Origin: Bifidobacterium breve
Lineage (GTDB): Bacteria > Actinomycetota > Actinomycetes > Nanopelagicales > Nanopelagicaceae
Assembly (NCBI GenBank): GCA_945883675.1
Contig: CAMCYA010000005.1
Location: 1-57,703 of the forward strand
Direction of reading: 5' to 3'
Length of the DNA: 57,703 nt
In this document: positions 1 through 13,905 of the stretch, piece by piece
How the letters are laid out: each line of letters begins with the position of its first letter
Position numbering within the stretch: position 1 is the stretch's first letter
Program-made: the position numbers and the translations under genes
The notes under the pieces: generated by a model
Databases searched by the model: none
The model's input: the letters and a program-made list of their open reading frames with translations, nothing else
What the model was told of the DNA's origin: nothing

Positions 1-173
1 TCCCAGCTGGTAAAGCTTCTGTTGACGTAACAGTTACAGGAACTGGTGTTTCAGCCGATGCCGCTAACACAGCATCACTAGCAGCACTAACTACATTGAT
101 CAACAGCTTAATTGCCAAGATCAATGCACTTAACAAGCTAGTAATCAAGATCCAGAAGAAGGTAAAGGCATAA
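1..173 (+). CDS. Surface-layer-like secreted protein, 3' end only
   Basis: Partial gene running in from the left edge; the frame reads from base 3 to the TAA at 171-173. The last 34 or so residues (hydrophobic heptad-like run ending in KIQKKVKA) are almost identical to the C-terminus of the protein at 10643-12349, so the missing N-terminal part was probably a similar secreted, Thr/Ala/Val-rich protein. The nucleotide match is perfect over 86 bp including third codon positions, which points to recent duplication or gene conversion. The C-terminal amphipathic Ile/Leu/Lys segment may be a multimerisation or wall-anchoring element; that is inference. Identity as paralog is firm, function is not. 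Confidence 0.8.
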   Translation, partial: PAGKASVDVTVTGTGVSADAANTASLAALTTLINSLIAKINALNKLVIKIQKKVKA

Positions 174-220
174 TCTCTTCAAGGGAAACCTTGATGGATT
201 AGTTTCTAACTAACTTCAAA

Positions 221-265
221 CCGAAGCCCGGCTTCCACTTAGGTGGGGGCCGGGTTTCGGCTTTT
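221..265 (+). terminator. Rho-independent terminator of the left surface-protein gene
   Basis: A long GC-rich hairpin (arms CCGAAGCCCGGC and GCCGGGTTTCGG, with an inner CCAC/GTGG step) is followed by CTTTTC. It starts about 48 bp after the stop codon. The same hairpin with few changes follows the paralogous gene in the opposite orientation at 10552-10595. Confidence 0.85.
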
Positions 266-326
266 CTTATAGGCGATGAGAGGGTGAGCAACACATTTAC
301 TTTCCCAATAGAGATGGATTACATAA

Positions 327-1091
327 ATGACCGCTCAAATAACTCTAGATGACTTCGCACAATCACTCTGGAAACACTTAAAGGTTACAAAAAAGACCCT
401 AGCCAACTACAGGGGAACGTATAGGTTACATATTTCGCCTTCTATTGGAACGAAGTCACTCGGTGAAGTAACAAGGCGAGAGCTATTGGACGCTTTAGCT
501 CCCTTATCTCCACATACGTATTACCAGACGCTGATGACTTGCCGAGTAATCTATCGAGAAGCGCTAAACCGTGAGCTGGTGGATGTCAGCCCCGTTGCGG
601 CAATCAAAGCACCAAAACTTACGAATAAACCTTACAAGTTCTTAACATGGGAGCAGGTCCAGCAAACAAACTTTGGTAAATACGACGAGCAAATCAAGTT
701 TCTTGCTCTCCACGGATTACGGTGGGGAGAGGCGGTTGCCTTAACGCAAGAAGATATTTATGACCAAAAAGTTCATGTCACCAGAAGCATTCACGGTGCA
801 ACTAAGACTCAGGCAGGGGTCAGAGTGGTTCCGTACTTAGGACATTTCAATCCCTTGCCTCGAACACCAAAGCCTTTAAGGAAAGCCCTGGAGCCGTATG
901 GGGTCAATATCCATTCACTAAGAAAGACCTATGCATATTTTTTAAAGAGCAATGACGTGCATGTAACAACAGCTGCAAAATTCATGGGCCACAGTAATCC
1001 TTTAGTGACTTTAAAAATTTACACTCTTGTGCGTGATAACGAAGTTATAGATGTGGGTAATTCGATGCGACAAAGGTTGGCGATCAAGTGA
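327..1091 (+). CDS. Tyrosine recombinase / phage-type integrase
   Basis: 254-residue site-specific recombinase expected to cut and rejoin DNA through a phosphotyrosine intermediate. An N-terminal SAM-like core-binding domain (about 5-95) precedes the catalytic domain. The full catalytic set is visible: Arg132 in HGLRWGE, Lys160 in the beta-hairpin, His196 and Arg199 in HSLRK, His222 in MGHS and nucleophile Tyr232 in IYTLV, so it should be active. It is shorter than typical phage integrases but close to Xer size; sequence style is integrase-like rather than XerC/D. It lies alone, directly inside the left arm of the inverted repeat, with no excisionase or phage genes around it. Substrate site unknown. 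Confidence 0.88.
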   Translation: MTAQITLDDFAQSLWKHLKVTKKTLANYRGTYRLHISPSIGTKSLGEVTRRELLDALAPLSPHTYYQTLMTCRVIYREALNRELVDVSPVAAIKAPKLTNKPYKFLTWEQVQQTNFGKYDEQIKFLALHGLRWGEAVALTQEDIYDQKVHVTRSIHGATKTQAGVRVVPYLGHFNPLPRTPKPLRKALEPYGVNIHSLRKTYAYFLKSNDVHVTTAAKFMGHSNPLVTLKIYTLVRDNEVIDVGNSMRQRLAIK

Positions 1092-1137
1092 GAAGTCCAG
1101 AACCTAATTCTTACTGAGGAAGGGTTTGGTTTTGGCT

Positions 1138-1752
1138 TTACTGAGTAATCAGAGTTGGGTCGATAGGGATTACAACTGTTACTGGAAACTTTGCAATCTT
1201 TGCCTGTGCGGTTGTAAAGGAATAGTTAGGAGAAATATAAATGAAAGGTTGCTCACATGCAGCCAGGGAATTAACCCCTTGTGGCAAATTGACGATAGTA
1301 GTTCCAGAGCTCTCTGTTCTAGGTGGTAAGGACTGATATGCACTAAATCCATTAGACCAATTCTCTGCGTAGTTGACAGAATTCTTGCACCACAGTTGTG
1401 TGTAAATACCAACTACTTCTTCTTTTTTGTTGAAGTTCTTAACGGTTAATGTATATCCATATCTAGGTACATAACCTATTGCTTCGCCTCGGTAGTCACT
1501 TTCTAAATCGTAAACTTTAAAGTCGGCCACAGTAACATTTATTGGATAGTAGGTGCTAACCCTTTTATTCTTGACCTTTTTAATAGTTAAACCAGCAGAG
1601 ACATTAATTGCTACGCCCATCTGTCCCTTTTTGGCGGCAGCAACTTTTACATCAAATGGGCTGGCTAGTTTCTCGGTGGCATAGGAAGCCGTAGGACCAA
1701 GTAATAGTGAAGTCAGCGTCGCGATAACCGTTAGTACCATCGTTTTTCTCAT
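1138..1752 (-). CDS. Secreted protein of unknown function
   Basis: 204 residues with a clear signal peptide: basic MRKT, hydrophobic stretch to about 21, then ASYA-TEK as a plausible cleavage site. The mature part is beta-rich in appearance, with two cysteines (in LWCKN and AACEQP) that could form a disulphide outside the cell. I do not recognise a family. It is encoded opposite to the flanking recombinase and galE and has no operon partner. The start could also be the Met at residue 5; no strong ribosome-binding site is seen for either. Confidence 0.6.
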   Translation of the reverse strand: MRKTMVLTVIATLTSLLLGPTASYATEKLASPFDVKVAAAKKGQMGVAINVSAGLTIKKVKNKRVSTYYPINVTVADFKVYDLESDYRGEAIGYVPRYGYTLTVKNFNKKEEVVGIYTQLWCKNSVNYAENWSNGFSAYQSLPPRTESSGTTIVNLPQGVNSLAACEQPFIYISPNYSFTTAQAKIAKFPVTVVIPIDPTLITQ

Positions 1753-1816
1753 GGAGAAAGGCTAACTGAGTTAAGTAGAAAATTCACCCTTTCACCCGAA
1801 TCATGAGGTTGCTGAC

Positions 1817-2836
1817 ATGCATATGAACTCACATAAAGTGGGTATAGATAGACTTAAATCTATGGGTCAAGGGCAAACCTGGTTACTAACCGGCGGTGCT
1901 GGTTATATTGGCTCACACATTGCTGATGAGTTTATTGGGGCAGGAAAGTCTGTTGTTGTTTATGACTCGCTATATCAAGGATTGCAATCACGTATCAAAT
2001 TTTTAGAAGATAAACATCAAGTAGAGATCCCTTTAGTGCAGGCAGATATTTTGGATTACAAGAAACTTGATGAAACCATAAAAAAATACAACATCTATGG
2101 CATTGTTCATACCGCAGCCCTAAAGGCAGTTGGTGAATCTATGGAGAAACCAGATCTCTACTTTGAAGTGAATTTGACAGCAACTATTGAGCTTTTGAAA
2201 ATAGCCGAACAAAACAATGTTAAGAACTTTATCTTTTCCTCATCAGCGGCTGTGTATGGAAGCCCTGATTCCATGGATCTATGTAAAGAAGATGGCCCAG
2301 TTGCGCCGATTTCTCCTTATGGCGATTCAAAGTATCAAGCAGAGGCATATGTTGAAAAATTCATTAGCAAACCAAGAAATCGTGGAACTTCACTAAGATT
2401 TTTTAACGTGATTGGTTGCGGTGCCACACCAGAGCTTTTGGATAATTCAGTTGAAAATCTAATTCCAATAGTTATAAATAAAATAAAGGCCGGGCAATCA
2501 CCGGTTATTTTTGGAACTGACTACCCAACAGAGGATGGAACATGCATCCGTGACTATGTTGATGTCCGTGATATTGCGCGAGCACACTTAGCAGCAGCCG
2601 ATTCACCGAATGTTTTGCCAACAAAAATAAACATTGGAACAGGCCGCGGCGTCTCTGTTCACCAAGTTATTGAACTTGTTTTAGCTGGACTTAATTCAAC
2701 AAATACTCCTGTTATCGAAACCGATCGCCGTGCAGGTGATCCCGCTTTTCTATGTGCCGATGTGAGCCTTTCTAAAACTGCTCTTAAGTTTGAATCACGT
2801 TATAGCCTGGAAGAAAGCATCGCCAGCATCTTTTAA
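1817..2836 (+). CDS. galE: UDP-glucose 4-epimerase (GalE-like extended SDR)
   Basis: Interconverts UDP-glucose and UDP-galactose (or the N-acetyl forms), supplying sugars for surface glycan. Rossmann NAD-binding motif TGGAGYIGSH at 25-34, SSSAAVYG with the catalytic serine near 142-143, and the YxxxK pair Tyr168/Lys172 are present; the C-terminal NIGTGRGVSV is typical of GalE. Length matches the family if translation starts at Met16 (base 1862), which would remove an atypical N-terminal extension; the upstream ATG at 1817 is the longest option. It opens a run of same-strand polysaccharide genes to 7577. Confidence 0.85.
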   Translation: MHMNSHKVGIDRLKSMGQGQTWLLTGGAGYIGSHIADEFIGAGKSVVVYDSLYQGLQSRIKFLEDKHQVEIPLVQADILDYKKLDETIKKYNIYGIVHTAALKAVGESMEKPDLYFEVNLTATIELLKIAEQNNVKNFIFSSSAAVYGSPDSMDLCKEDGPVAPISPYGDSKYQAEAYVEKFISKPRNRGTSLRFFNVIGCGATPELLDNSVENLIPIVINKIKAGQSPVIFGTDYPTEDGTCIRDYVDVRDIARAHLAAADSPNVLPTKINIGTGRGVSVHQVIELVLAGLNSTNTPVIETDRRAGDPAFLCADVSLSKTALKFESRYSLEESIASIF

Positions 2837-2897
2837 TAGGCTCTTTTCCCGAGCAAATAAGGTTAGTTAGTTTGCTGTTGGCCCAGAAAATGAAGTT

Positions 2898-3671
2898 ATG
2901 CTTGTCTGTGTGAGCCATCTTGAATTAATTCGCTTGCTCGTTGGCAGGGAATTAACCCTGCGATACAAGAGAAGCGTCCTTGGCATCGGATGGACCCTAC
3001 TAAATCCAATCCTGACTAGCTTTGTTTTATGGATCGTTTTTAGCTTTGTATTTGCATCCAAGTTGCCCTCTGGCCAGCAATTTGCTCCCTATTTAATGGC
3101 CGGGATTCTCCTGAACACATTCTTTAACCAGGGTTTAATGGCTTCGGCAGAATCAATTGCAGGAAACGGTGGAGTCTTAACTAAAATCTATATTCCGCCT
3201 CAAATATTTGCAGTCAGTGCGGCATTGGCGGCACTGGTTAACTTTTTGATTGGCTTTCTGCCACTTGCAATAGTTGTTATCATCTCTGGGCAAAGCCTGT
3301 CGCTATGGCTACCGCTATCCCTCGTTGTCGCCTTCTTTATGGCCATATTTGTTGCCGGTATTGGTTTAACTCTTTCTATCCTGTTTATCCGCTTTGATGA
3401 TTCTAGAAATATCGTTGCGGTTTTGTTAATGATTACTATGTATTTAACTCCAATTTTTTATCCAGTATCGATTTTAAATTCAACTATGCAAAGCATTGTT
3501 CGTTGGAATCCAATTACCAGTTATCTAGAGATCTTTAGGTGGGCATTTTCTAATAACGCTTCTCCCTCTGGCCGTGATTGGATCTTTATGATTGTCACAT
3601 CACTTGCTTCAATAACTATCGGTACATATTTCTTTAAGAAAAAATGGCCAAAAACGATGGCGATGCTCTAA
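2898..3671 (+). CDS. ABC-2 type polysaccharide export permease (Wzm/TagG-like)
   Basis: 257-residue integral membrane protein with about six predicted hydrophobic segments, the layout of ABC-2 permeases such as Wzm, TagG and RfbA. The N-terminal stretch RELTLRYKRSVLGIGWTLLN is the characteristic amphipathic entry helix of O-antigen and teichoic-acid exporters. It pairs with the ATPase that starts in its stop codon (TAATG). Predicted role: moving a lipid-linked polysaccharide across the cytoplasmic membrane. Confidence 0.85.
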   Translation: MLVCVSHLELIRLLVGRELTLRYKRSVLGIGWTLLNPILTSFVLWIVFSFVFASKLPSGQQFAPYLMAGILLNTFFNQGLMASAESIAGNGGVLTKIYIPPQIFAVSAALAALVNFLIGFLPLAIVVIISGQSLSLWLPLSLVVAFFMAIFVAGIGLTLSILFIRFDDSRNIVAVLLMITMYLTPIFYPVSILNSTMQSIVRWNPITSYLEIFRWAFSNNASPSGRDWIFMIVTSLASITIGTYFFKKKWPKTMAML

Positions 3672-4396
3672 TGGCTGTCATTAAATTAGAGAATGTAGGT
3701 TTTACATATCGCGTGCTGCTTAATCGCACCGGTTCACTTAAAGAATTATTTAAAGAGGCTGTGCATGGTCGAGTAAGGATGATCGACTACGTTGCATTAT
3801 CAGGAGTATCTTTTGAACTAAACGCAGGAGAAGTAGTTGCGATTATTGGCCGTAACGGTGCCGGTAAATCAACATTGCTAAAAATCTTGGCCGGTGTTTT
3901 GCCACCAACAGAAGGCAAATCAGTTGTTAACGGAAGCATTGCACCCATGATCGAACTTGGTGCTGGCTTACATCCAGAGATGACCGGCTCAGAAAATGTG
4001 CTGTTCTACTCAGTTCTTATGGGTAGAAAGACGAAAAAAGTGAAAAGCCGAATTGCAGCCATTGGGGAATGGGCTGGCGTCACCGATCATATGGACTTTC
4101 CTTTGCGTACATTTTCTTCGGGCATGGTTGCACGTTTAGCTTTTGCAACAGCAACAGATGAAAAAGCTGAAGTACTTTTGGTGGATGAAATCTTGAGCGT
4201 TGGGGATGCAGAGTTCCAAAAGAAATCTAGAGCGCGGATGGATCAGTTGATCGCATCTGGTGCGGCAGTAGTTTTAGTTTCACATGATTTAAATTCAGTG
4301 AGAGAGCTATCAACCCGCACAATTTGGCTTGAAGCTGGCCACGTGAAGATGTTTGGTGAAACTGGAGCAGTAGTAGATGCATACGAGGCCTCCTAG
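3671..4396 (+). CDS. ABC transporter ATPase for polysaccharide export (Wzt/TagH-like)
   Basis: 241-residue ATPase of the polysaccharide exporter. Numbered from the ATG at 3671: Walker A GRNGAGKS at 60-67, a non-canonical signature FSSGM at 148-152 (usual LSGG-type position for this subfamily), Walker B with VDE at 171-173, and the switch histidine His205 in VSHD. The reading frame is open back to an ATG at 3644, but the 3671 start gives a TAATG overlap with the permease and puts MAVIKLENV at the expected place. It lacks the C-terminal carbohydrate-binding domain of Wzt proteins that read O-antigen caps, so it resembles TagH or cap-independent exporters. Confidence 0.87.
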   Translation: MAVIKLENVGFTYRVLLNRTGSLKELFKEAVHGRVRMIDYVALSGVSFELNAGEVVAIIGRNGAGKSTLLKILAGVLPPTEGKSVVNGSIAPMIELGAGLHPEMTGSENVLFYSVLMGRKTKKVKSRIAAIGEWAGVTDHMDFPLRTFSSGMVARLAFATATDEKAEVLLVDEILSVGDAEFQKKSRARMDQLIASGAAVVLVSHDLNSVRELSTRTIWLEAGHVKMFGETGAVVDAYEAS

Positions 4397-4398
4397 CA

Positions 4399-5463
4399 AT
4401 GCCTTATTCATTAGGTGAGTACCTGTTACTGGGCCTTGCTTCAATAATTCTTTCAGGACTTTTAACGCCAGTAGCACGTAAGTTTGCCCGGCACATTGGA
4501 GCGATGGATCTACCTAATTTAGATCGTAAGGTACATAAGGAGCCCGTGCCATACCTTGGCGGATTATCAATTGCTCTGACAATTACGTTGTTAACATACA
4601 CAGTTATATTGGTGCAAGATCCAGACTGGTCAAAGTTTAGACTTGCAAGTTATGTGATTATCCCTGCATTAATTCTTGCAGCTGTTGGTTTACTAGATGA
4701 CATAAGGGGTTTAAAACCCTGGCCACGATTAATTATGCAAACATTAACTGGACTTGTGGTGGCAATTATTCTTATTCAAACAGAGACAATCAGTTTTGCT
4801 TTCGGCAACACCTATCTTGATGCGCTAGTTACAATTGTTTGGATAGTTGGAATATGTAATTCGATTAACTTCTTTGACAATATTGATGGTGGAGCATCGG
4901 GAACAGTTGCAATAATTGGCTTATCTGTTTTCTTAATTGCATTTAATCAAGGCCAGATTTTGGTTAGCTCAGCGGCAGTTGTGATGTGCGGGGCAGTTAT
5001 TGGATTTTTAGCCTGGAATAAACCCCCAGCAAAGATTTACATGGGCGATGCAGGTGCTTTGTTTCTCGGAGTAATGGTTTCTGTTTTAACCATTCGATTA
5101 GACCCAGGTATTTCACCAAGTTGGCAGTCACTAGCAATTCCGGTGTTAATGCTTGCGGTTCCAATTTTGGATACCACCGTTGCTATTTTCTCAAGGTGGC
5201 AAAGGGGTATTTCAGCTTTTACAGGCGGGCGCGATCATTTATCTCATCGCTTAATTCGAATTGGATTTACTCATAAAAAAGCTGCCGTATCCCTGTGGGC
5301 GCTCACTGCTGCTTTTTGCGGGGCAGCCCTTGCTGTCTATCAATTGCCACGCAGTGGCGCAACGGCAGTGATAATTTTTGCTGGATTAATCTGGCTATTT
5401 TTAGTTGTTGGTTTTTTGAGAATTAACTCCGAAGATTCAGTACCCTCTAAAGATAAAGATTGA
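4399..5463 (+). CDS. Undecaprenyl-phosphate sugar-1-phosphate transferase (WecA/TagO type)
   Basis: Polytopic enzyme that starts polysaccharide synthesis by transferring a sugar-1-phosphate, typically GlcNAc-1-P, from a UDP-sugar to undecaprenyl phosphate. The family's conserved acidic loops are intact: DD at 100-101 in LLDDIRG, NFFDNIDGG around 157-165, MGDAG at 215-219 and GGRDHLSHR at 276-284. About ten to eleven hydrophobic segments; 354 residues is normal. Starts 2 bp after the ABC ATPase stop codon, so probably cotranscribed. It is the initiating step for the cassette. Confidence 0.88.
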   Translation: MPYSLGEYLLLGLASIILSGLLTPVARKFARHIGAMDLPNLDRKVHKEPVPYLGGLSIALTITLLTYTVILVQDPDWSKFRLASYVIIPALILAAVGLLDDIRGLKPWPRLIMQTLTGLVVAIILIQTETISFAFGNTYLDALVTIVWIVGICNSINFFDNIDGGASGTVAIIGLSVFLIAFNQGQILVSSAAVVMCGAVIGFLAWNKPPAKIYMGDAGALFLGVMVSVLTIRLDPGISPSWQSLAIPVLMLAVPILDTTVAIFSRWQRGISAFTGGRDHLSHRLIRIGFTHKKAAVSLWALTAAFCGAALAVYQLPRSGATAVIIFAGLIWLFLVVGFLRINSEDSVPSKDKD

Positions 5464-6611
5464 CTCTAAAGATGCAATCAAATAGCGCAGTCAATAGTTC
5501 TCAGATCACAGTGCTGCATGTAATTGCACGTCTTAATGTGGGCGGCACCGCGCGATATTTGACCCAATTAGCCAAGCACTTACCAGAACACAATGTGAAG
5601 ATTGTTATTGCATCAGGATATGTTCAAGGTGAAGAGGTTGAAGATCCCTCTGCTTCACAGTTTAAGATTGTTTGCATTCCATCGTTAGGCCGAGCAATTA
5701 ATCCAATTGCAGACTACAAGGCATACAAAGAGCTAAAGAGAGTTGTTGCGGATTTAAAGCCAGATTTGATTCACACACATACTTTTAAGGCAGGGTTAAT
5801 TGGAAGAATCAGAGATTTTGGAGTTCCTGTTATTCACACATTCCACGGTCACTTATTTACAGACCCGGAGTTTAAAGGCGCTAAGGGCACAGTCATTCGA
5901 TTAATTGAGAATTATTTGGCACCACATGCTCATTCTTTAGTCACTGTGGGCGTGGGCGTTGCAGAAGATTTAATCAAAAAAGGAATTGGCGTGCGCAGCC
6001 AATACCGCAGCATTGCACCTGGAGTTTTACCACTAGATGTGACTGAGCGTTCGAAGGCATTTAAAAACTTGAATCTAACCGATGACGGCAAGTTGATTGT
6101 TGGTTGGATTGCACGAATGACTGGTGTTAAAAATCCAAACCGAGCTTTAGAGATTGCTGAAAAGCTGCCCAGTACGCGATTTGTAATGGCAGGCGGTGGC
6201 GACTTACTAGATTCAATTGCTACAACAGCTGGAGAAAATGTTTCAGTTGTGGGTTGGCAAGATGCACGTGACATCTTTGGAATCTGCCATCTAGTTCTAT
6301 CTACTAGTGAAAATGAAGGTATGCCGGTGGCACTTATTGAGGCCCAACTTGCTGGCCTGCCAGTTGTAGCAACTGATGTTGGCGCAGTCTCAGAAGTTAT
6401 CCAAACCGGTGTCACAGGGCGTGTGGTGCCCGCTGATAACGCTGCCTTGATCCAGGCAGTAACAGAAATTATCAATAGTTCAGATAAAGGTAAGGCCATG
6501 GGCAAAGCAGGTGCCATCCGTGCACGCAAGCTGTTTTCTATAGAGCAAATGGTTGCAGCCCACGTTGATCTTTATAGAAGCATTGAACTATCTAGAAGCA
6601 ATGTGAAATAG
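5460..6611 (+). CDS. GT4-family glycosyltransferase
   Basis: 383-residue retaining glycosyltransferase with two Rossmann-like halves (GT-B). Visible signs: LNVGGTARYL near the N-terminus, HTHTFKAGLIGR acceptor-side loop, HTFHGHLF, and the donor-binding SENEGMPVALIEAQLAGLPV with its E-x7-E spacing. Likely extends the lipid-linked sugar made by the preceding transferase. The TTG start overlaps the upstream stop (TTGA); an ATG twelve bases downstream (5472) is an equally possible start. Confidence 0.85.
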   Translation: MTLKMQSNSAVNSSQITVLHVIARLNVGGTARYLTQLAKHLPEHNVKIVIASGYVQGEEVEDPSASQFKIVCIPSLGRAINPIADYKAYKELKRVVADLKPDLIHTHTFKAGLIGRIRDFGVPVIHTFHGHLFTDPEFKGAKGTVIRLIENYLAPHAHSLVTVGVGVAEDLIKKGIGVRSQYRSIAPGVLPLDVTERSKAFKNLNLTDDGKLIVGWIARMTGVKNPNRALEIAEKLPSTRFVMAGGGDLLDSIATTAGENVSVVGWQDARDIFGICHLVLSTSENEGMPVALIEAQLAGLPVVATDVGAVSEVIQTGVTGRVVPADNAALIQAVTEIINSSDKGKAMGKAGAIRARKLFSIEQMVAAHVDLYRSIELSRSNVK

Positions 6612-6620
6612 GCTTTACTC

Positions 6621-7577
6621 ATGCGCGTTTTAGTAACAGGTGGGGCTGGCTTTATTGGTTCACATTTAGTCGAAGCCCTTGTTGCTAGAGGGGATACAGT
6701 CACTGTTATAGACAATGTTTCTACAGGAAATTTAGAGAATTTAGCTTCAGTAAAAGAGAAAATTCAGATTGTTAACGGCGATATTCGCGACAACGTTTTG
6801 ATTGAATCATTAACTGAGAAGACAGATTTAATTTTTCACTTGGCTGCTGCCCTTGGCGTCAATACGATTTTAGAGTCAACGTTGGAATCAATTTCTACAA
6901 ATATTGTGGGTAGTGAAATAATTCTAACTTCTGCTGCCAAAAACAAAAAGAGAATTGTCATTGCAAGTACATCAGAGATTTATGGCAAGAATCCAAAGCA
7001 GCCACTATCTGAATCTGATGACAGAGTAATTGGCGCCCCACAGAAAATTCGTTGGTCTTACAGTGATGCCAAAGCGATAGAAGAGGCCATCGCTACAACT
7101 TTGTTTCTGCGCCAAGCATTACCCGTTACAACTGCAAGGCTATTTAACACCGTTGGGCCTCGACAATCTGCAAACTATGGAATGGTTTTGCCAAAGCTTG
7201 TTCTGTCGGCGCTTAAAAATGAGCCGTTAATTGTGTTTGGGGATGGCAAGCAAACACGAGTTTTTTGTCATGTTAACGACGCAGTGCGAGGTCTATTGGC
7301 TTTGGCTGATTCACAAAAGAGTATTGGTGATGTGTTTAATATTGGCGGTGTGGGTGAGATAAGCATTAAGGATTTGGCTACAAAAGTAATTGAAGCCACT
7401 GGATCTAAATCTGAGATTAAATTGTTGGATTATCAAAAGGCATACCCTGCAGGATTTGAAGATATGGCCCGTCGTGTGCCAGATATTTCAAAGATTAAAT
7501 CTGTAATTGGGTGGCAACCAGAACACGATATTGATTCAATTATTGCCGATGTAATCACATATTTTAAAACCAAATAA
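6621..7577 (+). CDS. NAD-dependent nucleotide-sugar epimerase/dehydratase (extended SDR)
   Basis: 318-residue SDR enzyme acting on an NDP-sugar. NAD-binding GGAGFIGSH at 7-15, and the catalytic Tyr147/Lys151 pair in YSDAK. STSEIYGKN and the C-terminal region resemble UDP-glucuronate decarboxylase and 4-epimerase relatives, but the exact substrate cannot be read from sequence. Last gene of the plus-strand run, 9 bp after the GT4 gene. It may process the uronic acid made by the dehydrogenase encoded just beyond it. Confidence 0.8.
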   Translation: MRVLVTGGAGFIGSHLVEALVARGDTVTVIDNVSTGNLENLASVKEKIQIVNGDIRDNVLIESLTEKTDLIFHLAAALGVNTILESTLESISTNIVGSEIILTSAAKNKKRIVIASTSEIYGKNPKQPLSESDDRVIGAPQKIRWSYSDAKAIEEAIATTLFLRQALPVTTARLFNTVGPRQSANYGMVLPKLVLSALKNEPLIVFGDGKQTRVFCHVNDAVRGLLALADSQKSIGDVFNIGGVGEISIKDLATKVIEATGSKSEIKLLDYQKAYPAGFEDMARRVPDISKIKSVIGWQPEHDIDSIIADVITYFKTK

Positions 7578-7611
7578 GTTTTTTAAAACTAATTAATCAT
7601 CTAAAAAGGAA

Positions 7612-8763
7612 TCAAATACCGTCAACGCCTTTAACGGTGCCTGTGCAGTCAAATACGTAGGTCGCTTTTTTAATCTCTGCCTCTGTTAACCCGCTGTGGC
7701 GAGTGACAACAACGGCAATATCGCTACCTTCAATTGGACTAGAGCTTTGCCCCATCCACGTGCCAACAACATGATCATTCCAAGTAACAGTTGCGCCGGC
7801 CGAGGCCAGCAAGCGAATGATCTCTGCAGATGGCGTTTCACGGGTATCAGTGACATCGGGTTTATAGGCAACGCCAACGACGACAACTTTCTTACCCTTA
7901 ATACTTCCCCCGGCTGCAGCAATTACTCGTGCGACAACATAGGCAGGCATCGCTTGATTAACCTGTGTTGCAAGTTCGATAAAGGTGGCAGGTACCCCAG
8001 CCTTTGCAGCAACATTGGATAAATAGATTGGATCAACAGGGATGCAGTGCCCACCAACACCGGCACCAGGTGTGAACTCCATAAAGCCATAAGGCTTTGT
8101 TGAAGCAGCAGAAATCACTTCTCTTGGATCAATCTGTATTGCATGGGCAATCTGGGCAAATTCATTGACCAAAGCGATGTTTACTTGCCGGAATGTATTT
8201 TCGAAAAGTTTTGCAGCCTCTGCAACTTCGGGTGTCGATGTTTCAATGATGGTGTCACAAAAGGGTGAATAAAAACTCTTAGCAAGTGCAATTGCCTCTG
8301 GCGTTAAACCAGAGAGCAAACGCGGGGTATTTTTAACATCCCAATTGGCATTGCCAGGGTCTACGCGCTCTGGTGACGATGCATATAAGTGGACAACCCC
8401 TGATGCCTTAGTGATTCTGGCTGCAATCTCTGTGCGCAAAGTACCTGGATGAGATGTTGACTCATTAATAACTAAAATAGGAGATTTAAAATTACGCGCA
8501 ATAAGATCTGTCGCTTGGTGGATAAATGATAGATCTGGTTGTCGATCATCTGTTAAGGGGGTTGGCACAGCAATCAACACAATTTCACAACCAGATAACT
8601 TAGTTTCATCTGTGGTTCCAGTGAAATTACCTATCTCTTTGGCATCTAATTTCGCAACCGATTCAGCGCTCACGTCGTAGCCAATAACCAGATGCCCAGA
8701 TGCAGCGGCGGCGCGCGCAATTGTTTGGCCTACATAGCCCAGCCCAATAACTCCAACGCGCAT
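7612..8763 (-). CDS. Nucleotide-sugar 6-dehydrogenase (WecC/WbpA type)
   Basis: Oxidises a UDP-HexNAc (or UDP-hexose) to the uronic acid in two NAD-dependent steps. N-terminal Rossmann motif GLGYVGQ at 7-13, NPE-type region replaced by ASSPERVDPG around 128-137, and nucleophilic Cys240 in GVGGHCIPVDP, a sequence seen in the UDP-N-acetyl-glucosamine/mannosamine dehydrogenase branch. 383 residues, slightly short for the family. It runs opposite to the epimerase and is separated by 5 bp from the ligase-like gene upstream on the same strand, so those two probably form an operon. Confidence 0.85.
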   Translation of the reverse strand: MRVGVIGLGYVGQTIARAAAASGHLVIGYDVSAESVAKLDAKEIGNFTGTTDETKLSGCEIVLIAVPTPLTDDRQPDLSFIHQATDLIARNFKSPILVINESTSHPGTLRTEIAARITKASGVVHLYASSPERVDPGNANWDVKNTPRLLSGLTPEAIALAKSFYSPFCDTIIETSTPEVAEAAKLFENTFRQVNIALVNEFAQIAHAIQIDPREVISAASTKPYGFMEFTPGAGVGGHCIPVDPIYLSNVAAKAGVPATFIELATQVNQAMPAYVVARVIAAAGGSIKGKKVVVVGVAYKPDVTDTRETPSAEIIRLLASAGATVTWNDHVVGTWMGQSSSPIEGSDIAVVVTRHSGLTEAEIKKATYVFDCTGTVKGVDGI

Positions 8764-8768
8764 AAGGG

Positions 8769-10460
8769 CTACTTTAACTCAGGGTTTAAGGGATCAAGAC
8801 GTTTCATCTGCAGTTGAGCCTGCGCTATCTCTTCAGGGGTTGCAGATGGAATTGAGGCTATTAGTTTCCATGCGAAGTAGTTATCAGGATTATTTTTGAC
8901 TGTATTTCGAATAACCCGCAGTGCATTTTCTTCAAACTTACTGTCTGCAAGATTGCCAGCCATCAAGATTGATATCTCGGGGTTTAATGAGTCGCGCATA
9001 CCAAACTCTTCAACAGCTCCTATGGTAGTTTCGCCAGAAAGAGATCGCACTTCAATTGAATTACGAAGTGGCGACATTGCAATAAGTGCGCCAACTATTA
9101 GTCCAAACAAAGAAAAAAGCACCACATCCCAATCAGGTTTTACCTTCTCTAAGGATGGTTTGGCAGTAAGCCCTGGAACCTTGACTAAATCCTGATCTGC
9201 GGCTTTATCTTTAGTGCGCGTATTGATTTCATAACCAATAAGAAGACCTGTCAAAGTCCAACCCCAAATACCCAAGCCGAGTTGATTAATACTTATTAAT
9301 GACTGCAGTTGGTATGTAAACCAGGCAATAAACACTGCTACAAATTTCCAGTTATATCCGTTTTCACGTCGAAGTACCTTTATGACTGCTCGAACAGTTA
9401 GACCTAAAATAATCAGATAGGCACTCAGTAAAAGGAGCCCGCCATTTGATGAGATATCAATTAGTTGATTGTGAGCAGAGCTTGAAAAAACATCTGGGCC
9501 ACGACGAAGTGTTGCCTCTAAGGTGCGAGACCTGCGATACCAATCGCCATAACTATCTAAGCCGACACCAAAGATTGGATTCTCTAGAGTCATATTCTGC
9601 CCCGCACGCCAGTAGTCACCACGGAAAGTTACAGATTCTTGATACAGATATTTTGCAAAGAAGCCCTTATTCAAAGTACCGAAGAGAACTGCAAAAAAGC
9701 CAATCACGGAAAATACTAGGTATGAAGCTTTCAACTGAACTTTTATAGAACGAATAAAGCGTAAGTATGTAAGCAAAACTAGTGATGCAACCAGAACGAA
9801 GTAACCTTGTTCTGACTTTGTATAGTAAATCTGCACAATACTTATAACGATAAAAACAAAAAGAAGGATCCTATTGATAATTGAAATAGACTTTGAGATG
9901 AGAATAGCAATGGCTGCTGCAACTGCGATTGCAGTAAATGCCGATTGAAAGTTTTGATTTCCAAAGAACCCAAAAGCAAAATTAGAGGGGTTTACAACTC
10001 CTGTTGGGTCAGCACCGAGCACTTGAAGGAATCCATAAAACGTTGAAATTAAAGAGACACCAAAAAGCACATAGATGTAGTAGTTCAAATTGCTAGAGTT
10101 CGCAGCGATTACTGCTACAAAAAGTAGAATTGCAAGTGCGAAATAGGCTAGGTATCCAGTATTTCGCCCGTACGCCCCATAAAACTGCGCATTAAATGAA
10201 GGAGAAGTTATGAACAAAGTAAGAGTCAAGCAAGATAGAAAAAATAGAACCGCAAAAAAAGGTGCTTTGTAGGATGCAAACCATTTGTGTTTAAGGCCAA
10301 GAAGTAGTGCAACTATTGATGCCCCGCAAAATGCACCTAAAGACAATAGCCGCGGTGCATTAAATGGATCAAACGCAAAGCTAGGGGCTATGAACAAAGT
10401 TGTTGTGGTCAAAGATGCCAAAGATATAAAGGCTAGCGACTTTTGATATCTCTCCAACAT
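8769..10460 (-). CDS. O-antigen ligase / polymerase-like membrane protein
   Basis: 563-residue protein with roughly ten to twelve hydrophobic segments. The region SSSAHNQLIDISSNGGLL, preceded by the long loop with GVGLDSYGDWYRR, carries the conserved His-Asn of the Wzy_C/WaaL family, which joins glycan chains to an acceptor or polymerises repeat units. The C-terminal soluble part (about 465-563) looks TPR-like (LRVIRNTVKNNPDNYFAWK), an arrangement seen in bacterial glycan ligases that work on proteins or lipids. In a Gram-positive-type cell the acceptor is more likely wall glycan or surface protein than lipid A. Transcribed into the dehydrogenase gene. Confidence 0.78.
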   Translation of the reverse strand: MLERYQKSLAFISLASLTTTTLFIAPSFAFDPFNAPRLLSLGAFCGASIVALLLGLKHKWFASYKAPFFAVLFFLSCLTLTLFITSPSFNAQFYGAYGRNTGYLAYFALAILLFVAVIAANSSNLNYYIYVLFGVSLISTFYGFLQVLGADPTGVVNPSNFAFGFFGNQNFQSAFTAIAVAAAIAILISKSISIINRILLFVFIVISIVQIYYTKSEQGYFVLVASLVLLTYLRFIRSIKVQLKASYLVFSVIGFFAVLFGTLNKGFFAKYLYQESVTFRGDYWRAGQNMTLENPIFGVGLDSYGDWYRRSRTLEATLRRGPDVFSSSAHNQLIDISSNGGLLLLSAYLIILGLTVRAVIKVLRRENGYNWKFVAVFIAWFTYQLQSLISINQLGLGIWGWTLTGLLIGYEINTRTKDKAADQDLVKVPGLTAKPSLEKVKPDWDVVLFSLFGLIVGALIAMSPLRNSIEVRSLSGETTIGAVEEFGMRDSLNPEISILMAGNLADSKFEENALRVIRNTVKNNPDNYFAWKLIASIPSATPEEIAQAQLQMKRLDPLNPELK

Positions 10461-10551
10461 TTTCTAATCTTACTTCAGACGTATGAGAGCAATCCTGCCA
10501 GATGATGGGTGATTTTTGAATGTCAGGCTTGGCATAATGCTTTTAGAAGAG

Positions 10552-10595
10552 AAAAGCCGAAACCCGGCCCCCACCTAAGTGAGAGCCGGGCTCCG
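10552..10595 (-). terminator. Rho-independent terminator of the full surface-protein gene
   Basis: Read on the minus strand, the hairpin CCGGAGCCCGGC ... GCCGGGTTTCGG is followed by CTTTTC. It begins 47 bp after the stop codon and mirrors the terminator at 221-265. Confidence 0.85.
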
Positions 10596-10760
10596 GTTTG
10601 AAGTTAGTTAAGAACTAACCCAGCAAGGTTTCCCTTGATCGATTATGCCTTTACCTTCTTCTGGATCTTGATTACTAGCTTGTTAAGTGCATTGATCTTG
10701 GCAATTAAGCTGTTGATCAATGTAGTAAGTGCTGACATTGTTGCTGAGTCTGAAACAGTT
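10555..10760 (-). repeat. Right arm of the long inverted repeat
   Basis: Covers the 3' coding end, stop codon and terminator of the surface-protein gene. 10641-10726 is the perfect 86-bp inverted match to 90-175; the terminator part is nearly identical to 176-268. Upstream of 10726 the two genes diverge quickly at nucleotide level. Confidence 0.85.
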
Positions 10761-12349
10761 GCTGTTGCAGCAAGTGTTACAGCTGTTGCTGGAACTCCTG
10801 AGCCTGCGCCTGTCTTACCAGCGAAGACAATTGGACCTGATGTCAATGGAGCATAGAGCGTCCATGTCTTGACTCCACCAATTGTTGGTACAGCAGTTGC
10901 TGTAGTTGTATCTCCGTTTAGTGAAACGTTGGTGGTAATACCACCTGCTGCAAGTACATCAGTACCTGTTCCATCATCTGCGGTCTTAAATGTACCTGCA
11001 TCTTTAAGTGTAAGAGTTAGGGTCATCTTCTCACCTGGTAGGTAAGTTGCCTTATCTGTTGTCAAGACAGCAGTTGTAGCCCGTACTAGACCAACAGTGA
11101 AAGGAACTGCAACTGTTAGACCTGTTGCTGTGTGAGTAAGTGTTAATGACTTAACACCTGTCTTTGTAGCAGTTGGGTCAACTACTAGTACCGGTGCTGA
11201 AGCAGCTACTGCCACACCACTGTATGTTGCAGCTGATCCAGCTACAACTGCTGCGCCTGTGATAACTGCTGCTGTCAATTGTGCTGCTGTTGGTGCAGTG
11301 AATTCACCTGCTGTAAGTGTTACAGCGTTTCCAGCTGCATCCTTACCTGAGATGAATGCTGCATATGCATCTGTGTCAGTGTTAGCTGAGCCATCTGCTG
11401 TATCTGGGATTGAGCCACGTACAGCAGTGGCAGTAAGTGATGCAACTACGCCAACCCATGTGATTGTTCTAGTTGCTGTGTATGCACCTGCAGTGATTGT
11501 GAGTACTGAAACTCCAGCAACGCCATCTGGTGCAATACCAACAGTGAAAACTTCACCTGTTGTTGCAACAGTACTTGTAAGTGAACGTCCTGTTGCAATG
11601 GATGATGATAGTGGATCTGTGTCAGATGCTGAGAGTGCAAGTGTTCCAGGTCCCGTTAGAGATACTGCAACTTTAGTCGTTGTGGTAATTGCACCAGCAA
11701 CTTGACCAAGGCTAACAATTGCTGCAAACACAGGTGTTGCAGCAGCACCAGCAGGAGTTGCTGTTGATGAGAATGAAGTTGTCTCTGTTGTAGCAGCTGT
11801 GACTGTCGCTGCCTTGTTCAAGAATGTAGTTGATGTTGCTACATCGAGTCCACCAGAGATAACTGCAGCATTAACTGTGATTGTTACAGTCTCTGTCGCA
11901 GTAGTCTTGTAAATACCAGCAGAAAGTGTTTCAAATAGTGAAACTGTTACTGTTCCCACTGTTGGGGTATTGATAGTTACAACACCATCATTGTTGGCTG
12001 CGGTAGCACTAAAGGTTGCGCTTAGGCCACCTGTTGCAATTACGAGATCAGCATCAGTAGTAGTGCCCATTGTTGCACCAGCTCCTGAAACTGTTACGCG
12101 AGAGCTTGCTGGAGCATCAAGAAACTCAATCGAAACTGAGTTTGCCACTCCTGCAACACCGTTACAGGCATCGTTTCCTGCCTGGGCTGACGCTGCAATT
12201 GTGTCGCCTGCGGCTAGACCGTCAGCAACTTCACACCACACATTAGTATTCGTTGCTGCACTAGCTGGTGAAACAGATGTAAGAACACCCATTCCAAGAG
12301 CTGCTACTGCAACAAGCGCAATACGCTTGTAAATTGTCTTTGTAGACAT
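10643..12349 (-). CDS. Secreted surface-layer-like protein
   Basis: 568 residues from the ATG at 12349, which has an AAAGGA ribosome-binding site six to seven bases ahead and gives an ideal signal peptide (MSTKTIYKR, hydrophobic run, SPASA-ATN). The mature protein is rich in Ala, Thr, Val, Ser and Gly with few charged residues, has two early cysteines (VWCEV, NDACNG), and looks like a string of beta-sandwich modules, as in S-layer or adhesin proteins. It ends in a Lys-rich amphipathic helix shared with the gene at 1-173. The frame is open further upstream to an ATG at 12532 that overlaps the sigma-factor stop (ATGA), but that would bury the signal peptide. Function inferred, not proven. Confidence 0.75.
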   Translation of the reverse strand: MSTKTIYKRIALVAVAALGMGVLTSVSPASAATNTNVWCEVADGLAAGDTIAASAQAGNDACNGVAGVANSVSIEFLDAPASSRVTVSGAGATMGTTTDADLVIATGGLSATFSATAANNDGVVTINTPTVGTVTVSLFETLSAGIYKTTATETVTITVNAAVISGGLDVATSTTFLNKAATVTAATTETTSFSSTATPAGAAATPVFAAIVSLGQVAGAITTTTKVAVSLTGPGTLALSASDTDPLSSSIATGRSLTSTVATTGEVFTVGIAPDGVAGVSVLTITAGAYTATRTITWVGVVASLTATAVRGSIPDTADGSANTDTDAYAAFISGKDAAGNAVTLTAGEFTAPTAAQLTAAVITGAAVVAGSAATYSGVAVAASAPVLVVDPTATKTGVKSLTLTHTATGLTVAVPFTVGLVRATTAVLTTDKATYLPGEKMTLTLTLKDAGTFKTADDGTGTDVLAAGGITTNVSLNGDTTTATAVPTIGGVKTWTLYAPLTSGPIVFAGKTGAGSGVPATAVTLAATATVSDSATMSALTTLINSLIAKINALNKLVIKIQKKVKA

Positions 12350-12408
12350 TATTTTCCTTTCGATAGTCGATCCAGAGACGATCCCTGGGTCGGCTTGTGC
12401 AACAAGGG

Positions 12409-12431
12409 CACTCACATATGTCATGAGAGTG
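12409..12431 (-). promoter_or_regulatory. Imperfect palindrome in the leader of the surface-protein gene
   Basis: On the minus strand, CACTCTCAT and ATGTGAGTG (one mismatch) are separated by five bases, 60 bp upstream of the start codon. A second short pairing (CCAG/CTGG) lies nearer the start. It could be an operator or a 5' leader hairpin; nothing in the sequence decides between them. Confidence 0.4.
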
Positions 12432-12528
12432 TCTTTTTGCACGACGTAATGAATCGCACGTGCTGATTCACTACTTTCTCTACCAAATTCCGGATCTGGC
12501 AGAGAATTCTCTTTGTTTAGGCCGCGCT

Positions 12529-13905
12529 TCATGCTCGGGCCTGGTCTGTAGTAGGGCTATAAATGAATTGAGAGGCTGCTGAGATCACTTGGGATCCATC
12601 GGCAGTTACTTTGAGCTTCACATTGATCTGTGAAGGAAGGGGAAGTGGTGAATTGGATGGCTCAATTATAACCCAGGCACTTATCAGTCTGGTTCCATCC
12701 TCTAAGCGTGTCTCCTGGCTTGAATACTCCAAGATCTCAGGGGAAACGTTATTTGCGCCTTGAGCAAAGAGAGGGGCAATAGAAAGCACTGATTGACCAT
12801 CCACGATCTCGATGGTCTGGACCAAGTAGGTGTCGATTCCATTAGATGAAGAGGAAAGAACAAAGTCGCCGGCACCTAAGGTCGTGATCTTTACAGAATC
12901 ACGGTTGGCCTGTGTGTAAGCACCATTGTTTGTTGAGACTCCGATTGGAGCGCCATTTGAATCTAGGCCGATCCAACCAATATTTGTTGCAACTGATCGC
13001 AAATTCATGACTCCCTGTTGCACAACTGCCATGCCTCTAAAGAAAGTGTCGATATCTGTTGAAACACTAGTGACCGTTGAAATATCAGAATCAGTTGAAG
13101 GAACTTCTGCTGCGTTTTTATCGCTAGGTGTTTCTTGTGAATTATTTGGAGCACCTGGAATAACAGATGCAATCTTAGAAGTTCCGCTTGTAATTGCTTC
13201 GTTGCCTGTCATGGAGTTAAAGCCAAGGAATGCAGTAACAACTAATAATAAGGAAAGTGCTGCTGTGGTTGACTTTTTAGCAAGCTCTGCAGCCTTCTTG
13301 TAAGAAGTAGAGAGCATGTCCATTGCTGTTAGGCCACGCTCTTGATCTAGAACAACCTCGGTCAAGATGCGACGAAGTGAAAGGCGAGCGCGAGAAACAG
13401 TGTGGCGAACAGTTGCTGGCTTGATGCCAAGTTCTGCTGCGATCTCTTCTGTGCTGCGGCCTTCGATTTCCCACATAACAAGTGCTGCGCGCTCTGCAGG
13501 TGAAAGTAGTGAGATTGCTTGGCGAATAATCGCTGCATCCTCTGCTGCTGTCATTGCTGCTGAGTGGTCTCCATCTACTGCCCATGTTGCTTCGATCTCT
13601 GCTGATGCATCATCTAATACGACAAGGTTGGGACGGCGTCCTTCGCTGCGGAATAGATCGATGCATAGGTTTTCGATTGTGCGGTGTAGATAAGAGATTG
13701 CGTGATCTGTTGACTCAAGTTCTGGCGCTGCAAGGATGAACTTGATTAATGCATCCTGAGTAATTTCCTCAGCCTTGTTTGAATCCTTTAGAACGCGGTT
13801 TGCGTGTGTAAGTAGCTCTGTGCGGTGTGCTGTGTAGAAAGCACCAAGCTCTGCCACGGTCCAAACACGAGGACCTGCAGAGTTTGCAGAGTTCTTAATT
13901 GACAC
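12529..13905 (-). CDS. ECF-type sigma factor with C-terminal transmembrane and outer domain
   Basis: 458 residues. Residues about 20-90 form sigma region 2 (AEEITQDALIKFI, SYLHRTIENLCIDLFR) and 130-185 region 4 with the helix-turn-helix STEEIAAELGIKPATVRHTV. Instead of ending there, the protein continues through a basic stretch and one hydrophobic helix (about 213-230), then some 225 residues rich in Ser/Thr that would sit outside the membrane. It would thus be a one-protein membrane-tethered regulator, a layout known for some actinobacterial ECF groups. Starts at GTG with AAGGAA upstream. It sits immediately upstream of the surface-protein gene, its likely target (inference). No separate anti-sigma gene is nearby. 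Confidence 0.82.
   Translation of the reverse strand: MSIKNSANSAGPRVWTVAELGAFYTAHRTELLTHANRVLKDSNKAEEITQDALIKFILAAPELESTDHAISYLHRTIENLCIDLFRSEGRRPNLVVLDDASAEIEATWAVDGDHSAAMTAAEDAAIIRQAISLLSPAERAALVMWEIEGRSTEEIAAELGIKPATVRHTVSRARLSLRRILTEVVLDQERGLTAMDMLSTSYKKAAELAKKSTTAALSLLLVVTAFLGFNSMTGNEAITSGTSKIASVIPGAPNNSQETPSDKNAAEVPSTDSDISTVTSVSTDIDTFFRGMAVVQQGVMNLRSVATNIGWIGLDSNGAPIGVSTNNGAYTQANRDSVKITTLGAGDFVLSSSSNGIDTYLVQTIEIVDGQSVLSIAPLFAQGANNVSPEILEYSSQETRLEDGTRLISAWVIIEPSNSPLPLPSQINVKLKVTADGSQVISAASQFIYSPTTDQARA

Follow-up and report, generated by a model that had tools for sequence, protein, structure and literature searches.

What kind of locus brings the ends of two surface-protein genes face to face as an inverted repeat, with a tyrosine recombinase and a glycan cluster enclosed between them? 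This arrangement stands at the start of contig C5 in G000, a 62-contig draft genome that is ~85% complete; the stretch analyzed here, positions 1-57,703 of C5, is referred to as the window. The host appears to be an acI or Planktophila-like actinobacterium; a single-cell genome of the same genus, SCGC AAA278-O22 (G018), has been assigned to acI-A1 (PMC5301498). The locus is likely to belong to a switch that inverts DNA by site-specific recombination and so exchanges the expressed surface-coat protein, of a type resembling the proteins of a surface layer (S-layer). Evidence comes from the anatomy of the locus, a step in identity at a short dyad in the 5′ leader, dyad spacers that match within genomes, a leader element found on one side only, the clade of the recombinase, and the occurrence of both orientations across species.

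Inverted gene ends in the window

Gene A is a 57-codon fragment, and the contig starts inside it. Its product is 65% identical to the end of the gene B product over 51 residues. The original prediction was that the two gene ends match as inverted copies down to their silent positions, and they do: window positions 90-175 are the reverse complement of 10641-10726; all 86 bp agree, and the exact match goes no further in either direction. The terminators are alike as well. The arms 67-175/10641-10749 are 94% identical and the arms 179-267/10550-10638 are 92% identical, spanning the last codons, the stop and the terminator, and blastn merges both into a single 201-bp inverted repeat (92%). Such a repeat cannot have arisen by chance. 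The 3′ repeats are a shared C-terminal helix plus a terminator, and their identical silent sites fit a homogenization of gene ends within the genome. The enclosed 10.4 kb holds one recombinase and nine other genes on recount, one fewer than the ten glycan-related or secreted genes first listed beside the recombinase. Contig C17, which ends within this same 3′ repeat, carries a third related gene, gene C. A sequence link between C5 and C17 was looked for and not found, and the gap that holds the 5′ part of gene A remains.

A putative recombination site in the 5′ leader

Genes B and C are near-identical over 165 bp from a dyad in their 5′ leaders onward, then diverge in the middle (~40% identity), and become similar again at their ends. 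This 5′ repeat (12264-12428) lies beyond positions 1-10,760, to which the original prediction referred, and is more informative than the repeat at the 3′ ends. Matches downstream of the dyad start were 17/17, 23/23, 29/30, 30/30, and 60/60; those upstream of it were 4/10, 4/20, 8/30, and 12/40, which is the level of unrelated sequence. The same step in identity occurs at the dyad between genes A and C of G073 and in L154, a locus of G245. The dyad consists of inverted arms, the first ending in CTCAT and the second starting with ATGAG or ATGTG, separated by a 5-bp spacer. Sites matching the window dyad are found in G073, G105, G277, G259, L154, and IMCC26077, a closed genome from culture (CP015606). 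At gene C of G073 the dyad is a near-perfect inverted repeat, GGTCTTTCTCAT-GACAT-ATGAGAAAGGTC.

Further evidence comes from the way in which the two arms are distributed. The flank-side arm stays with the flank, and the gene-side arm moves with the gene. Gene C of G000 carries the flank-side arm of gene C of G073 (10/10) together with the gene-side arm of gene B, which is the outcome expected from a crossover in the spacer. The dyads of one genome share their spacer, which changes from lineage to lineage (GACAT, GGTTC, TGCTA, GACTT, TACTT). A within-genome match everywhere arose in 1 of 200,000 random deals, a figure that ignores the common descent of paralogues. Dyads with the spacers GTCAT and TTCAT occur in the surface-gene leaders of L138, L139, and L144, which belong to genomes with no recombinase of this family (G086, G087, and G030).

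A strict 23-bp symmetric pattern with up to three mismatches had no match in the window, and one further copy of the short core CTCAT-N5-ATGWG, at 1916-1930, is presumably there by chance. The window site was therefore recognized from the comparison of paralogues and not from the motif alone. Pattern scans of relatives covered 135 genomes. With two mismatches allowed, many hits fell off the locus. Those in G136 and G143 that matched exactly lay inside an unrelated conserved coding gene, and the count was therefore restricted to surface-gene dyads.

Convergent gene pairs and their two states

In five loci a recombinase of the one clade accompanies a convergent pair of surface genes for tandem-beta-domain proteins, both with a dyad in the 5′ leader. 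In G105, IMCC26077, G277, and G259 the order is dyad, surface gene, recombinase, converging surface gene, dyad; in L154 the recombinase lies just outside the pair of converging surface genes with their dyads. All five pairs have 5′ inverted repeats of 157-186 bp (83-96% identity) that start at the dyad, and 3′ inverted repeats of 180-641 bp (76-91% identity) at the gene ends. Judged from these pairs, the inverted 3′ ends of the window are the inner repeats of a convergent-pair architecture.

The segment is asymmetric: about 124-266 bp separate the end of one surface gene from the start of the recombinase, and 80-100 bp lie between the recombinase end and the other surface gene. The gene at the flank that bears the leader hairpin (described below) lies upstream of the recombinase in IMCC26077 and G105 and downstream of it in G277 and G259. 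As read from these sequences, both orientations of the segment occur, across species, and switching would presumably take place within one strain as well. The original prediction was that recombination between the 3′ arms could invert the enclosed cassette. Inversion by a recombinase is supported for this locus, but the joint appears to be the dyad in the 5′ leader, where unrelated sequence steps to near-identity, and not the 3′ ends.

A leader hairpin at one flank

The leader contains a hairpin whose stem covaries: 98.4% of the cells were paired and five of seven pairs had changed on both sides, compared with at most 46% in slid controls. It stands before the dyad at one flank, and no more than one, in G000, G073, G105, IMCC26077, L154, G277, and G259, and also precedes the surface gene in most single-gene genomes. 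An Rfam search with the leader returned chance-level matches only. We take the hairpin to mark the expression site, which would place gene B of G000 in the expression position. The surface gene in the presumed expression position always has the same upstream neighbor, a gene for an extracytoplasmic function (ECF)-type sigma factor that bears a long C-terminal extension. This sigma factor may drive the expressed surface gene.

A proposed model of the inversion switch

How would such a locus switch? In the proposed mechanism, two or more surface genes lie in opposite orientation with a recombination dyad in each 5′ leader, and one or more neighboring tyrosine recombinases would pair two dyads and invert the DNA between them. 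The conserved leader, with its hairpin and presumably the promoter, is present only at the flank of the sigma gene, so that the gene at this flank would be expressed and the other silent. In G000, gene B would occupy the expressed position, and gene C on C17 and probably gene A would be silent partners. Exchange between copies would keep the shared C-terminal helix and terminator alike. Both the catalytic event and the control of expression are proposed from the arrangement of the locus.

Several observations weigh against this model. Opposite states are known between species only, and not from reads or from a same-strain pair. The 5′ end of gene A and its 5′ dyad are missing from the assembly, leaving the inverted pair of the window not closed. 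The promoter itself was not located. Three genomes, G086, G087, and G030, retain the 5′ dyad with no recombinase of the surface-locus family. Finally, the window recombinase belongs to a subclade different from that of the G105 and G073 enzymes and adjoins a degenerate 3′ dyad, where it may act instead of at the 5′ dyad.

Recombinases and alternative explanations

The window enzyme is a tyrosine recombinase, with the six catalytic residues R132, K160, H196, R199, H222, and Y232 invariant in the alignment. It does not qualify as XerC or XerD, scoring far below both thresholds (45.2 bits for TIGR02225, cut-off 329.6, and 30.9 bits for TIGR02224, cut-off 335). A sequence search of the PDB gave one weak integrase match, and a search of IMG/VR gave distant integrases only (≤32% identity). 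The surface-locus recombinases, including that of the window, form a single clade (support 100/100) separate from the solo integrases of the same family. These solo integrases (L065, L066, L099, L100, and L243) form the sister clade and lie away from surface genes. Within the surface-locus clade, the window and G078 enzymes are a branch of their own that adjoins the L150 and L151 enzymes; the L151 enzyme lies beside dyad-bounded small genes.

Does the window recombinase act on the 5′ dyads? One alternative, compatible with the inversion switch, is that it serves a mobile gene cassette as integrase, with the 3′ dyad behind surface-gene terminators as the insertion site, and that the 5′ exchanges are carried out by other recombinases. 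The enzyme begins ~42 bp after a 3′ dyad that matches in position the intact 3′ dyads CTTTCTCAT-GGTGA-ATGAGAAGG of G078 and of genes A and C of G073, and that shares 14 of 18 arm letters with them. On contig C47 of G078 (L064, 1-1894), a 279-aa open reading frame (ORF) and a recombinase lie between an intact 3′ dyad behind a surface-gene terminator and a partial copy of terminator and dyad, as if the element had been inserted at the 3′ dyad. The window clade also includes recombinases beside dyad-bounded small cassettes. The contigs L151 (3038-3449) and L158 (1591-3226) are 99.9% identical over 1,610 bp and diverge exactly at a dyad next to a window-clade recombinase, a divergence point that also speaks for the inversion switch. 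Small genes lie there between successive dyads with differing spacers, which gives these contigs an integron-like look. Further, in both G028 (L060, contig C104) and G073 (L061, contig C2) two recombinases stand side by side, and each has its orthologue in the other genome (74% and 68%), which suggests two specificities; the window enzyme may work on 3′ dyads and partner enzymes, as in the G028 and G073 pairs, on 5′ dyads. Against a mobile cassette, the 3′ dyad of the window is degenerate, and no second recombinase of the clade was found in G000, an incomplete draft. This alternative is conceivable, if rather doubtful.

A broader version of the same idea is put forward tentatively, as a possibility on the less probable side: a dedicated recombinase family would run two-site surface-gene cassettes, with 5′ and 3′ dyads that have the same arms and different spacers (in G073, GACAT before the gene and GGTGA after it) and two recombinases, as in the orthologous pairs of G028 and G073. 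If so, whole coat genes could be inverted, exchanged, or swapped between cells, and related recombinases could build small integron-like arrays such as those of L151 and L158.

A second alternative does without site-specific recombination at the surface genes. Gene conversion or homologous recombination of the RecA type would homogenize the ends of duplicated genes, the dyad would be no more than a regulatory operator or a leader hairpin, and the recombinase would be an unrelated passenger integrase. The 5′ and 3′ ends are indeed both alike within genomes, gene B has its 3′ repeat with no intact dyad, and some genomes keep dyads without a recombinase. However, the 5′ identity ends at the dyad and not gradually, and the spacers match within genomes. 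A recombinase with a convergent pair recurs in several genera, always from one clade, and the dyad is absent at the leader position in seven related single-gene loci that have no such recombinase at the locus (G001, G002, G007, G010a, G015, G018, and G063). These results make the second alternative improbable. In G088, a single surface gene lies between an intact dyad and a half dyad that adjoins wzy, as if the partner gene and the recombinase had been lost.

The glycan cluster

The glycan cluster encodes an epimerase, an ATP-binding cassette (ABC) permease and ATPase, a sugar-phosphate transferase, a glycosyltransferase, a second epimerase, a uridine diphosphate (UDP)-sugar dehydrogenase, and a Wzy-like ligase. 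The series sigma factor, surface gene, wzy, ugd, converging epimerase, glycosyltransferase, and ABC exporter has the same order and orientation in G014 and G088. Its first part, from sigma factor to epimerase, is kept beside a single surface gene in G007, G063, G086, and G087, and much of the order also appears in another genus (G259). Judged by gene order, the cassette of the window is a standard neighborhood and not exchangeable cargo, because relatives with one surface gene keep it in the same order and orientation. The suggestion of a landing zone at the shared 3′ end, where glycan cassettes would be swapped, is not supported: it had called for a comparison of cargo and orientation among relatives, and both turned out to be conserved, the outcome named beforehand as refuting it. 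It is highly improbable that the inverted 3′ ends recombine to flip the cassette or receive exchangeable ones: a repeat and a recombinase are present, and a 201-bp repeat could allow an occasional homologous inversion, but the cassette keeps its place beside sigma factor and surface gene in single-surface-gene relatives, and the pairs of G105, G277, G259, and IMCC26077 share 3′ repeats with no cassette between the genes. To this neighborhood G000 adds the extra surface genes, the recombinase, the gene for a small secreted protein, and several sugar genes. Lying here between gene B and the recombinase, the cassette could ride along in a larger inversion.

Other features of the locus

The AlphaFold model of the gene B product shows beta domains followed by a helix at residues 536-566, which is encoded by the shared 3′ end; its mean predicted local distance difference test score (pLDDT) of 59.6 supports the fold class only. 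A Foldseek search with this model gave multi-domain immunoglobulin-like proteins, including the S-layer proteins SbsB and SbsC, at low template-modeling (TM) scores. The protein had no Pfam match. On this predicted fold, S-layer-like surface protein is a reasonable name for the product. Its signal peptide (MSTKT..SPASAA) has no evident lipobox cysteine, and homology to the Vpma/Vsp proteins discussed below was not found. The small secreted protein next to the recombinase belongs to no Pfam or NCBIfam family. The coordinates of all features are collected in Table 1.

Table 1. Features of the surface-protein locus, in window coordinates
Feature	Position	Strand	Basis
Surface-protein gene A, 3′ fragment	1..173	+	Open frame PAGKAS...IKIQKKVKA*
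Left 3′ repeat arm, with the codons of the C-terminal helix, the stop and the terminator	67..267	+	Pairs with 10550-10749
Degenerate 3′ dyad after gene A terminator, TTTTCTTAT-AGGCG-ATGAGAGGG	262..284	+	Weak alone
Tyrosine recombinase	327..1091	+	PF00589, 31.1 bits (cut-off 27.1)
Small secreted protein	1138..1752	-	ORF; homologous stretch by the recombinase in G078 C47
Glycan cluster	1817..10460	.	Pfam for three genes; order and orientation as in relatives
Right 3′ repeat arm, with the gene B end and its terminator	10550..10749	-	Inverted match to left arm
Surface-protein gene B: signal peptide, tandem beta domains, C-terminal helix	10643..12349	-	AlphaFold model
5′ repeat common to genes B and C (C17)	12264..12428	-	165 bp at 99.4% identity; directly upstream, matches of 4/10 and 4/20
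Putative recombination site AGACACTCTCAT-GACAT-ATGTGAGTGCCC in 5′ leader	12406..12434	-	Identity step here
Leader hairpin GTGAATC-AGCACGTGC-GATTCAT, candidate mark of the expression flank	12449..12471	-	Stem covariation; one flank only
ECF-type sigma factor with C-terminal extension	12529..13905	-	PF08281 and PF04542; same neighbor in relatives

Many drafts of the lineage end within ~110 bp of a dyad (both ends of L060 and one end each of L073, L134, and L137), and the coat locus is systematically broken in them. Contig ends at the sites (G028, G066, G103, G105, and G146) were not used as a sign of mixed orientations, since a repeat alone also breaks assemblies. A coat switch, if true, would help to account for the assembly breaks that this lineage shows at the surface gene.

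Comparison with known systems

The acI actinobacteria (Nanopelagicales) have very small genomes and rank among the most abundant bacteria of fresh water. Their microdiversity is usually attributed to phage predation. A coat switch, if real, would allow a reversible change of the surface exposed to phages and grazers within a clone, may serve in evading them, and could be tested in cultured relatives. Cultured acI strains reportedly lack clustered regularly interspaced short palindromic repeats (CRISPR) (PMC10202952). No paper on phase variation in Nanopelagicales was found in the open-access literature.

How does the proposed switch compare with those already described? In the Vpma and Vsp systems of Mycoplasma agalactiae and M. 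bovis, the tyrosine recombinase Xer1 is encoded at the locus, every gene has a site in its 5′ untranslated region along with a conserved leader and signal peptide, and inversions link a silent gene to the one active promoter (PMC2268961). The locus described here is like Vpma in having the site in the 5′ leader (in genes B and C and in both genes of the five complete pairs; the site is not visible for gene A), in its recombinase encoded in or beside the locus, and probably in its single expression site, as suggested by the one-flank hairpin in seven genomes. It differs from Vpma/Vsp in that the recombinase clade and the site are others, the proteins have tandem beta domains and are not lipoproteins, and the 3′ ends are conserved. 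Furthermore, it usually consists of a two-gene convergent pair that encloses the recombinase, and it is found in free-living, streamlined actinobacteria.

A two-gene flip is also seen in Lactobacillus acidophilus, in which silent and expressed S-layer genes, slpA and slpB, are swapped by chromosomal inversion (PMC5893755). The proteins of the two systems are unrelated. The slpA and slpB genes lie in opposite orientation with shared 5′ and 3′ ends in a segment of ~6 kb. To our knowledge, this segment has no embedded recombinase, and we know of no covarying leader hairpin there. In Campylobacter fetus, paralogous S-layer genes of the sapA type have conserved 5′ ends and are inverted behind one promoter, and this inversion is RecA-dependent and homologous, with no dedicated recombinase known. 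In the CwpV switch of Clostridioides difficile, the tyrosine recombinase RecV controls a cell-wall protein via upstream inverted repeats (PMC2784873); unlike the recombinase of the present locus, RecV has its gene elsewhere, and what inverts there is a short ON/OFF element instead of a gene pair. The logic of the switch is known from Vpma/Vsp and slpA/slpB, and the enzyme clade, the site, the protein family, the leader hairpin, and the host group are different.

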